A stretch of 37,680 bases of DNA from Desulfurococcales archaeon (lineage in GTDB: Archaea > Thermoproteota > Thermoprotei_A > Sulfolobales > Desulfurococcaceae), in assembly GCA_027067785.1 (NCBI GenBank), contig JAMOVL010000034.1:1-37680 (forward strand), in the 5' to 3' direction. Position numbers and translations under genes: made by a program. Below, piece after piece: positions 2,585 to 7,194 of the stretch; position 1 is the stretch's first letter; each line of letters begins with the position of its first letter. Below the pieces are notes generated by a model, which was not told where the DNA came from, ran no database searches, and worked only from the letters and a program-made list of their open reading frames with translations.

Positions 2585-2694
2585 GGGGCCGTAGTCTAGC
2601 TTGGCTAGGATGCCGGCCTGGGGGGACACCCCGCCTAGCCAAGCCTGGTGTCACAGAGCGCCGGTGATCCCGGGTTCAAATCCCGGCGGCCCCA
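2585..2694 (+). tRNA. tRNA-Pro (GGG) with a 35-nt intron at 37/38
   Basis: Acceptor GGGGCCG/CGGCCCC, T-arm CCGGGTTCAAATCCCGG, anticodon stem CCGGC/GCCGG. Removing 2624-2658 gives loop CTGGGGC. Confidence 0.85.
2624..2658 (+). other. tRNA-Pro intron (bulge-helix-bulge type)
   Basis: Inner helix GACACC/GGTGTC, 3-nt bulges GGG and AGC with cuts after the second nt, short central helix CTG/CAG. Confidence 0.75.
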
Positions 2695-3846: not shown

Positions 3847-6800
3847 TTATTTTATCTTCGCGATCACACCTGGTTTCGGCTCATAGATGGTGCCTTCTCT
3901 CTTCAACTTCCTGAGCATCTCATTGGTAAAGTCTCTAGCGAACCCCTTATCCATAGCTTTCCTCACAAGCTCCTTGTACTCGATCTCATCGGTCTCCTCA
4001 AATATCTCATCGATAAACCTTATGAAGGCCTTCATACGCTCCTGTTTGCTTCTCGGCGTACCTACCATTATCGTATCTATATCTATCCTACCAGTCTCAA
4101 CATCTATTCCAGCCCGCTGGAGACTATAGTACATGAGCCTGACAGCTTCTTCAGCATCCTCTATAGTCACCTTATTCTTCAACGCCATCTTCGCATGGGC
4201 TTCGCTAAGTCTAACGAGGGCCTCAAGCTGCCTAGCAGTAATAGCTATCGGTGCCTCCTCCGAGACGCCGCTGGCCCGTCTCATCGAAACAAAGAATTCT
4301 TCGAGAAGATGAACAGCTTCCTGTGTCAGCTGGGGCCTGATATATCTCCTCGCATAGCTGATGTATTTCTTCAAAAGCTGCGGCTCTATCATAGGCTTTG
4401 CCTTCTCTACATTGCCGTGAACAGCTAGTATGTGGCGTGCAAGCATCCTATCTCGTTTCTCGTGAGGTATATCCTGTATTATGAATATAAGGTCAAATCT
4501 AGACAGTATAGGCGGAGGAAGATCTATGTTTTGCCCAATAGATTGTTTCGGATCATACCTTCCAAACTTAGGGTTACCAGCTGCAAGCACAGATGCTCTC
4601 GCATTAAGCCTAGCGACTATTCCTGCCTTCGCAATACTAATAGTATTATGCAGCACAAGGCCATGTGATACAAAGAGATGATAAGGCTCTACAGTGACAT
4701 CATACACCCATTCAACATCATTATTCTCGACAATCTCTTTACCAACAATGATCCTGGGTATATTAGGTTCTCCCATCCTTTTCTCGAAATCCAGAAGTAC
4801 TTGTCTAAGCTTATTCAGAGAATCACCTATCTCGGCGAAGAATTTATGTATGTCTCGACCAGCGGTCAGCATTAATATTAAGGAGTAATGCTCAACCGAA
4901 ACACTGTCAAGACCACCAGCAGTACCTATAAGGTCGCTGAGTATGTCTGACACCATAGACTCCATAATCTCCTCCGTAATCTCCCCGAGAATTATTCTCT
5001 CAAACAATTCTTCCCCAACTAGTTCTCTAAGACCACCTGCAACCGCATACGCTATCTCTAACCACGAATCAGGATAGTCTTTAAGCTTCTCCATAGACCT
5101 CTGTATACGCTGACATGTTCTTTCATCTGTAATGTATTCAAGCAGTTTTTCAAGGCTTTTTGGACCCGATATAATTAGCTCTCCGTTATTAATGAAACTA
5201 TTTATTCCAAGTCTCCAGAGCATTTCCTGAACTACGAGAGCAGCTCTGGGTTCAAGTTTTAGAGATACCATATAGTTGTGACCACCTGTTTCTCTAGAGA
5301 AGAGAAGTGTAAGAACCCTGCTGATAACATCTTTGGATGATACGATTTCATTTATGAAGCCATTCTCGATTTGACCATTAGCACCGATTATGTCATAATT
5401 CCTTAACACCTCGTATTCGTTCGACGAGATCTCTCCCACCAACACTCTATAAACAAGTTCAGACGCTCCCTCCAATCCATACTTCTCGATAAGCTTCTCT
5501 AAACGTGCGCTATATGCAGCTAGAACAGGGTATCTCTTGACTCCAAGAACAATCATATTCGGCTTTACATCTTCGGCTGGAATGACAGAGATTTTTCCTT
5601 CGAGAAACACTACTACGGGATGCTCGGGGGTTACGAGTATTTCACGCCCATTACTAAACCTTAGCTTTACAAACCTGTTCGGAGCCCTATGTCTGCTGAC
5701 TCTATCGGCTTTAACAATGAGCGGTCTACGACTATACAGATCGTATCCTATCAGGAAAACATCATCGGTGAATAGTATCTCTGTTTCTTCTCCACGCAGT
5801 ATCTTCTCATTATTCTCCGCCATAAGAGAATCCACGTATTCACCAATACTTACTAGGCGGCCATCCGCAAGCATAATTTTAAAGCTGGGATGATAGCTCT
5901 GCTGCTCGAGCGCCTCGTGAATAGCGCTTCGATCCTCCTCCCTCATCTTATCGATCTCATCTATTGCTGCGAGGCCACCGTCAGCGAGCACGAGAGCACC
6001 AGCTTCAAGATACCATTCTCCCGTATGTTTATCACGTAGAACGCTAGCGGTGAGACCTGCTGCTGATGAGCCTTTTCCACTAGTATATATTCCTCTAGGA
6101 GCTAGACGGGCAGCATATTGGAGCATCTGTGACTTAGCTGTACCGGGATCACCGACGAGCAGTACGTGGATGTCTCCACGTATCCTCGTACCGTCCGGGA
6201 GGATCTTAGGGACTCCGCCGAACAATTGTAGTGCTATTGCCTCCTTTATGTTCCAATGCCCATAGATTGACGGCGCTATGCTGGCAATTATCTTCTCTCT
6301 TATCCACGGGTCTCGTGCCATCTCCCTGATCTTCTCCTCGTCCTCACGGGTGATCTCTATTTCCTCTAGAATTTTCTGCTGTACATCAACATAGTTGGCC
6401 TCAATATAGAATGAGAACACGGCTTTACTGCCAGCTTTCTGCATGGACGCTGTAGGCATTACTCTTAATATACCAGTTATCGTTATCCTGTCTCCAGGCC
6501 TCGCTATATCGACAAGATCGCCTGTTAGAACAACCTCAATACTTCTCGGTATCTGTCCAGGCGGGATCTCTTCCGGTTTCTCCTGAACAACTATTTTCTG
6601 CCAGTCAATGAACTTCGACTTATCAGGGAGGAGCTGAAACTTGCCTCCTCTACCACATATAGGGCATATAGCTGGCTTCTCGATTCTCTCTCCCATCTCC
6701 CCGAATTCCGGGTAATCGAATTCAGCACCACACTCAGGGTCTAGATGCTTATACCTCGCCTTGACAAGCTTTGCCTCTACCCTCGTGAGCCTTGTCAATA

Positions 6801-7194
6801 TACCTTCAATAGCGATCATCTTACCTATGTATTCGCTGGTGAGCTCTCTCACCCTTATTATCCTAGACAGGTTTCTGAATCTAGGATAGAACTTCTCCAC
6901 TGCTTGAGCATAGTCGGGGTTTTCCTTGAGAAGCAATTCCTTTATAGCACGGCTAGCAGCGTCGAGCGCTATCTCCGGGTTATCCTCAATTATGTGTGCG
7001 AGTTTTCGATCGAATAATGTTATATCATCAAAATCTATGACAAGGCTCTTCTGCCCCATTAACGCCATCTGGGATAATCGTTCACGGTATTTGAAACTCC
7101 TCGTCCTACGATCCATGTATTCCCATAGAAATCTCTTAAACCTAGTCACAAGATCGTCGAGCTCTTGGGTCTGTGTCTCGACATCAAAACTCAT
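3847..7194 (-). CDS. mcm: Replicative minichromosome maintenance helicase MCM, interrupted by an intein
   Basis: Walker A GDPGTAKSQ, Walker B AAIDEIDKM, zinc finger CPIC, GNPKFGRYDP, LSRFDLIFI; extein is 697 aa after intein removal. Confidence 0.97.
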   Translation of the reverse strand: MSFDVETQTQELDDLVTRFKRFLWEYMDRRTRSFKYRERLSQMALMGQKSLVIDFDDITLFDRKLAHIIEDNPEIALDAASRAIKELLLKENPDYAQAVEKFYPRFRNLSRIIRVRELTSEYIGKMIAIEGILTRLTRVEAKLVKARYKHLDPECGAEFDYPEFGEMGERIEKPAICPICGRGGKFQLLPDKSKFIDWQKIVVQEKPEEIPPGQIPRSIEVVLTGDLVDIARPGDRITITGILRVMPTASMQKAGSKAVFSFYIEANYVDVQQKILEEIEITREDEEKIREMARDPWIREKIIASIAPSIYGHWNIKEAIALQLFGGVPKILPDGTRIRGDIHVLLVGDPGTAKSQMLQYAARLAPRGIYTSGKGSSAAGLTASVLRDKHTGEWYLEAGALVLADGGLAAIDEIDKMREEDRSAIHEALEQQSYHPSFKIMLADGRLVSIGEYVDSLMAENNEKILRGEETEILFTDDVFLIGYDLYSRRPLIVKADRVSRHRAPNRFVKLRFSNGREILVTPEHPVVVFLEGKISVIPAEDVKPNMIVLGVKRYPVLAAYSARLEKLIEKYGLEGASELVYRVLVGEISSNEYEVLRNYDIIGANGQIENGFINEIVSSKDVISRVLTLLFSRETGGHNYMVSLKLEPRAALVVQEMLWRLGINSFINNGELIISGPKSLEKLLEYITDERTCQRIQRSMEKLKDYPDSWLEIAYAVAGGLRELVGEELFERIILGEITEEIMESMVSDILSDLIGTAGGLDSVSVEHYSLILMLTAGRDIHKFFAEIGDSLNKLRQVLLDFEKRMGEPNIPRIIVGKEIVENNDVEWVYDVTVEPYHLFVSHGLVLHNTISIAKAGIVARLNARASVLAAGNPKFGRYDPKQSIGQNIDLPPPILSRFDLIFIIQDIPHEKRDRMLARHILAVHGNVEKAKPMIEPQLLKKYISYARRYIRPQLTQEAVHLLEEFFVSMRRASGVSEEAPIAITARQLEALVRLSEAHAKMALKNKVTIEDAEEAVRLMYYSLQRAGIDVETGRIDIDTIMVGTPRSKQERMKAFIRFIDEIFEETDEIEYKELVRKAMDKGFARDFTNEMLRKLKREGTIYEPKPGVIAKIK
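4645..5898 (-). other. MCM intein, 418 aa, degenerate LAGLIDADG-type
   Basis: Extein junction EALEQQ^SYHPSFKIM...VLHN^TISIAKAG; splicing blocks GREILVTPEHPVVVF and VYDVTVEPYHLFVSHGLVLHN. Confidence 0.93.

Follow-up and report, generated by a model that had tools for sequence, protein, structure and literature searches.

What might a tRNA intron do in the unspliced transcript when part of it is antisense to its own tRNA's D-loop? This question is raised by a tRNA-Pro(GGG) gene in the window examined here, that is, the whole stretch of DNA that was analysed (37,680 nucleotides (nt) of a Desulfurococcales archaeon, contig JAMOVL010000034.1). The persistence of archaeal tRNA introns is an open question, and a conserved intron strand able to hide the anticodon and the D-loop would give the intron a direct, testable role in ordering tRNA folding and modification.

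A D-loop complement in the intron of tRNA-Pro(GGG)

The gene lies in a fragmented genome of 1.13 Mb whose close relatives are deposited Desulfurococcales archaeon MAGs. It was recognised with Rfam and left undetected at 2585-2694 by ARAGORN. The features on which the analysis turns are as follows.

2585-2694, + strand: tRNA-Pro(GGG) gene with a canonical 37/38 intron (Rfam RF00005, 53.2 bits; homologues order-wide)
2599-2609, + strand: D-loop and start of the 3' D-stem, G15-G23, target of the anti-D element (from sequence; paired in the minimum-energy fold)
2619-2623, + strand: U33, anticodon GGG and G37, target of the intron CCCCG (paired in the minimum-energy fold; partner conserved)
2624-2658, + strand: intron of 35 nt between 37 and 38, with predicted splice sites (bulge-helix-bulge read from sequence; homologous introns in relatives)
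2625-2630, + strand: 5' arm of the intron hairpin in the spliceable fold (fold A), overlapping the first two C of the anti-anticodon (sequence; 6-bp inner helix)
2629-2633, + strand: anti-anticodon element CCCCG, conserved in Thermoproteota (position counts against shuffles across 121 introns)
2634-2644, + strand: anti-D-loop (anti-D) element CCTAGCCAAGC, conserved in most Desulfurococcaceae (shuffle tests; covariation)
2647-2652, + strand: 3' arm of the intron hairpin in fold A (sequence; 6-bp inner helix)
2653-2659, + strand: 3' strand of the central helix and 3' bulge of the splice motif, cut expected after 2658 (three of four central pairs with 2618-2621)

In tRNA numbering, A14 is 2598, G15 is 2599, G18G19 are 2603-2604 and G22G23 are 2608-2609; U33 is 2619, the anticodon GGG is 2620-2622, G37 is 2623 and C38 is 2659. 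(Note that the D-arm is partly palindromic at 2594-2611, CTAGC-TTG-GCTAG, and has an alternative self-hairpin of its own.) The splice motif comprises the 6-bp inner helix, three of four central pairs, which is slightly relaxed, and 3-nt bulges. Judged by its position (37/38) and its bulge-helix-bulge, the intron is a canonical archaeal tRNA intron with predicted cleavage sites. It shares with such introns (PMC4090602) the exon boundaries, the 3-nt bulges and a central helix formed by C32-G35 and the 3' end of the intron.

The D-loop segment 2599-2609 reads GCTTGGCTAGG and the intron segment 2634-2644 reads CCTAGCCAAGC, so that, as the preliminary description had reported, the two are exact reverse complements over 11 nt. 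The match takes in G22 and G23, bases of the 3' D-stem strand. The intron hairpin GACACC/GGTGTC described with it is also present (2625-2630/2647-2652) and holds the element in its 16-nt loop. When the intron was shuffled, an 11-nt match to its own D-loop arose in 11 of 300,000 trials (~4e-5), and one of at least 11 nt to any part of the 5' exon in 47 of 100,000 (~5e-4). An earlier estimate that put the probability of such a match below 1e-3 holds up for one gene and is weaker when the roughly 12 intron-bearing tRNAs are counted.

For the other parsed intron-bearing tRNAs of the same genome, the best D-loop match has a p value of 0.01 to 0.7. Two of these were considered as candidates and rejected. 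In tRNA-Asn, a 7-nt match (p=0.01 in its own genome) involves the stretch GCCTGGC, which stays the same while the D-loops of relatives change; it belongs to the splice region, where it is conserved without following the D-loop. In tRNA-Met, the match is longer and imperfect (p=0.03 in its own genome), and the matches of relatives scatter. Between genera of the window's branch, intron identity is 91% for Pro (five genera), 72% for Asn and 61% for Met (four genera). (In contrast to the Pro intron, a block AGCCTGG(C/T) close to the 3' splice side is retained in the family's tRNA-Asn(GTT) introns, L013 and L274-L302, whose remaining sequence varies.)

Conservation and covariation of the anti-D element

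Homologous tRNA-Pro genes were gathered from relatives, from the order and from the phylum, giving 121 distinct introns of at least 12 nt each. With the element scored as kept when at least eight contiguous pairs (G-U counted) could form, it is kept in 26 of 38 readable Desulfurococcaceae genomes, as tallied by hand (G002 from a partial gene, G011 from L155). On the RpoB tree it is present in both deep branches of the family. Among the 120 introns whose best D-loop match was compared with shuffled versions, 11 have a match at p<0.001, 15 at p<0.01 and 23 at p<0.05, and nearly all of the significant matches lie at one place, straight after the C run, at intron offset 10-13. (In L155, Desulfurococcales archaeon AUK150, tRNA-Pro(GGG) has an apparent second insertion in the variable region besides its 37/38 intron; similar insertions are found in L147 and L189.)

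Covariation between intron and D-loop, which the preliminary description had proposed to look for across Desulfurococcales tRNA-Pro genes, is seen within the family. In genera g14 and g16, the D-loop GCCTGGCTAGG accompanies the intron sequence CTAGCCAGGC or CCTAGCCGGGC, and in genera g1, g2 and g15, the D-loop GCTTGGCTAGG accompanies CCTAGCCAAG(C). In genera g4 and g7, U20a has been lost from the D-loop (GCCTGGCAGG) and its partner A is missing from the intron (CTGCCAGGC). A single genus outside the family (f4 g28) has a match of the same length, GCTTGGCAGG with CCTGCCAGGT (p=0.002). Three changes are found at position 17 of the D-loop, two of which are mirrored in the intron (U-A to C-G) while the other leaves a U-G pair; the deletion of 20a is mirrored on both strands, once. 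No change runs the opposite way, and the mirrored events, three in all, do not suffice for a sign test on the tree. These two mirrored substitutions and one mirrored deletion are nonetheless compensatory changes of the kind that pairing of the intron with the D-loop in cis would leave, albeit in few events.

The fit between introns and D-loops was also assessed by permuting the D-loops, with pairing scored without gaps. (MAFFT pair counting was set aside, as MAFFT misplaces the one-base deletion on both strands.) Among 15 family genera with one representative each, the observed total fit was reached in 7 of 20,000 trials, whereas in the rest of the order it was reached in 10,233 of 20,000, which argues that tracking of the D-loop is a trait of the family. 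Moreover, when 12 D-loop variants were scored, nearly all element-bearing family introns (G014 being the exception) fitted none better than their own, whereas in f4 and f6 genera, outside the family, the own D-loop is not the top-scoring variant.

The match of intron and D-loop is thus real, conserved and non-random, and its conservation with compensatory change is stronger evidence than the chance figure for a single gene. Nevertheless, relatives that have the same intron position and lack the complementarity, an observation that had been named beforehand as one that would refute the proposed interpretation, do exist in part of the family: 12 of the 38 family members have no match, several of them with an unchanged D-loop, and beyond the family most of the order lacks the element and there is no general intron/D-loop signal. 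Since about a third of the family has lost it, the anti-D element is not essential; it is a lineage-specific, dispensable trait of Desulfurococcaceae, a family of heat-loving archaea.

An anti-anticodon element beside the anti-D element

Directly 5' of the anti-D element is CCCCG (2629-2633), which is complementary to U33-G34-G35-G36-G37 and was missed in the preliminary description. Of 121 Thermoproteota tRNA-Pro(GGG) introns, 103 have CCCC somewhere between their nt 4 and 13, compared with a mean of 8 and a maximum of 18 in shuffled introns, and the base that follows is a purine, as pairing with U33 requires, in 102 of the 103. It is present in Pyrobaculum, Vulcanisaeta, Thermofilaceae and Nezhaarchaeota as well as in Desulfurococcales, even in introns of 16 nt, and its conservation is independent of the D-loop complement. 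Comparison of these introns indicates that the anti-anticodon element is older and far more widely conserved than the anti-D element, and that the latter is a dispensable, family-level extension of it in the tRNA-Pro(GGG) intron.

Intron pairing with the anticodon is familiar in itself. In archaea it usually involves the first two anticodon bases and takes place in the central helix of the splice motif (PMC4090602); the CCCC element of tRNA-Pro, in contrast, lies apart from that helix. Compared with the canonical 37/38 intron, the tRNA-Pro intron adds a conserved strand against G34-G37 (and, in Desulfurococcaceae, against the D-loop) that competes with the splice motif.

In eukaryotic pre-tRNAs, too, intron bases pair with the anticodon. 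There the pairing is part of the splice motif, whereas the hairpin predicted for tRNA-Pro uses G34-G37, leaves no room for that motif and continues into the D-loop. The C/D-box guide intron of archaeal tRNA-Trp resembles the tRNA-Pro intron in being an archaeal tRNA intron antisense to its own tRNA, whereas the latter has no C/D boxes and a length of only 35 nt. In yeast, free tRNA introns reportedly act in trans through complementarity; a role for complementarity is proposed in both cases, but the target in tRNA-Pro is the same tRNA and the evidence favours action in cis. A literature search, with subscription papers outside its scope, turned up no account of D-loop pairing by a tRNA intron in archaea, nor of any anti-anticodon separate from the splice motif. 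In plasmid and phage collections, the search returned nothing or short matches the size of tRNA exons only.

Predicted alternative folds of the precursor and their possible role

In the predicted minimum-energy fold of the precursor (fold B), the 16 nt at 2629-2644 (CCCCGCCUAGCCAAGC) are paired uninterrupted, 2629-2633 with 2619-2623 and 2634-2644 with 2599-2609; the fold is nested and free of pseudoknots, and its acceptor and T arms are native. Neither the D-stem nor the anticodon stem nor the splice motif can form in fold B. Fold A, which consists of the cloverleaf, the central helix and the inner helix 2625-2630/2647-2652, shares bases with fold B, and the two are mutually exclusive. In the energy model, fold B is more stable than fold A by 20 kcal/mol at 37 C and by 11 at 85 C. 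These values constitute weak evidence, as a nearest-neighbour calculation penalises bulges and takes no account of tertiary contacts or modifications. Competing folds are predicted also for relatives that lack the anti-D element, and for several relatives the lowest-energy structure at 37 C is one without the D-loop pairing, yet fold B is still far below fold A. Given the conserved complementarity of the intron to the anticodon and the D-loop, an alternative fold is probably open to the precursor before splicing.

With moderate confidence, we take the best explanation to be that 2629-2644 acts as one continuous antisense strand that would make the precursor two-state, fold A or fold B, and would mask the anticodon and the D-loop. 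Behind this stand the elements themselves and their conservation, the D-loop part's covariation, and the computed energies. The formation of fold B in cells, its timing and its purpose are inferred, most likely as follows. The 5' half and the intron are transcribed before the 3' half, so that during or just after transcription the intron strand could capture the G-rich anticodon and D-loop of the 5' half. Fold B would then keep these from mispairing and hide them from enzymes that read either one, until the 3' exon and the binding of the splicing endonuclease pulled the RNA into fold A and splicing could follow. More tentatively, the single strand that masks both may turn the pre-tRNA into a switch by which modification, charging or splicing is held back until transcription has finished; the anticodon part of the strand would be ancient in Thermoproteota tRNA-Pro(GGG) and its D-loop part a Desulfurococcaceae extension. 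In this tRNA, with four G at 34-37, correct modification of G37 matters for the reading frame. In Methanopyrus, tRNA ends are trimmed before the intron is removed, and the intron is still present in 89% of the reads of intron-bearing tRNAs (PMC3695527), which makes it plausible that the precursor passes through a stage in which its acceptor-T half is intact while its lower half is masked.

A different geometry had been put forward in the preliminary description, namely a loop-loop pseudoknot in which the intron hairpin stays in place and its apical loop pairs with the D-loop while the rest of the precursor keeps its native fold, sequestering G18G19 until splicing. The position of the anti-D element in the 16-nt loop of a 6-bp hairpin is what such a pseudoknot would need, and covariation alone fits either geometry. 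However, in the spliceable fold the anticodon stack carries the intron loop at its distal end, by our estimate roughly 60 A from the D-loop, with a linker of only 2-3 nt; pairing over the full length removes G22 and G23 from the D-stem; the hairpin stem and the anti-anticodon have two C in common; and in the element-bearing G112, G014 and G034 the intron hairpin is short (2-5 bp). The energy model (which covers nested folds only) favours the nested fold, with the intron strand running on into the anticodon. Because the 16-nt nested pairing is the predicted minimum-energy fold and the pseudoknot geometry looks implausible, the folding switch is preferred and the pseudoknot appears unlikely. Of the earlier proposal, what stands is that G18G19 could be hidden in the precursor, as their complement is conserved and covarying in the family.

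Alternatively, the excised and possibly circular intron might act in trans, as an antisense RNA against the D-loops of proline tRNAs, whether mature or still precursors. The D-loop is the same in every tRNA-Pro isoacceptor found in the source genome, and stable circular small RNAs are known in archaea (PMC3695527). We nevertheless regard this as distinctly unlikely: the D-loop of a mature tRNA is buried in the elbow, and the adjacent anti-anticodon is perfect for GGG and imperfect for UGG. Moreover, in G008 and G014, the only two informative genomes, where isoacceptor D-loops differ, pairing is stronger with the intron's own GGG D-loop (-19.0 vs -14.3 and -12.2 vs -11.1 kcal/mol), which argues for cis over trans. 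A guide RNA that directs D-loop modification, like the C/D-box intron of tRNA-Trp, is scarcely credible, even though guides can reside in archaeal tRNA introns and, for Sulfolobus tRNAs, 2'-O-methylation or targeting by guides has been reported at D-loop positions 17 and 18 (PMC7668247): the 35-nt intron is too short for a C/D or H/ACA fold and gave no Rfam match other than tRNA, and a C/D-box guide was rejected because both the C box (RUGAUGA) and the D box (CUGA) are absent. Somewhat less easily set aside, though in our judgement still unlikely, is that the pairing is a functionless by-product: a complement that arose by chance in an ancestor and has persisted because the intron evolves slowly, perhaps aided by the partly palindromic D-arm and hairpin constraints. 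Loss of the element in a third of the family, the small number of independent mirrored events and the lack of a general signal outside the family are all in keeping with such an origin, but it does not readily account for D-loop changes that are mirrored in the intron, a deletion included, for the permutation result (7 of 20,000), or for the clustering of significant matches at one place beside CCCC.

The existence of natural compensatory variants, presumably including those of the cultured Staphylothermus, Thermogladius and Thermosphaera, makes the proposed pairing with the D-loop easy to test. Elsewhere in the window, a gene for a CCA-adding tRNA nucleotidyltransferase (71-1285, + strand; Pfam) lies ~1.3 kb upstream of the tRNA-Pro gene, and 3847-7194 (- strand) encodes an intein-interrupted MCM replicative helicase, with an Intein_splicing match at residues 441-850 between its MCM domains (Pfam).
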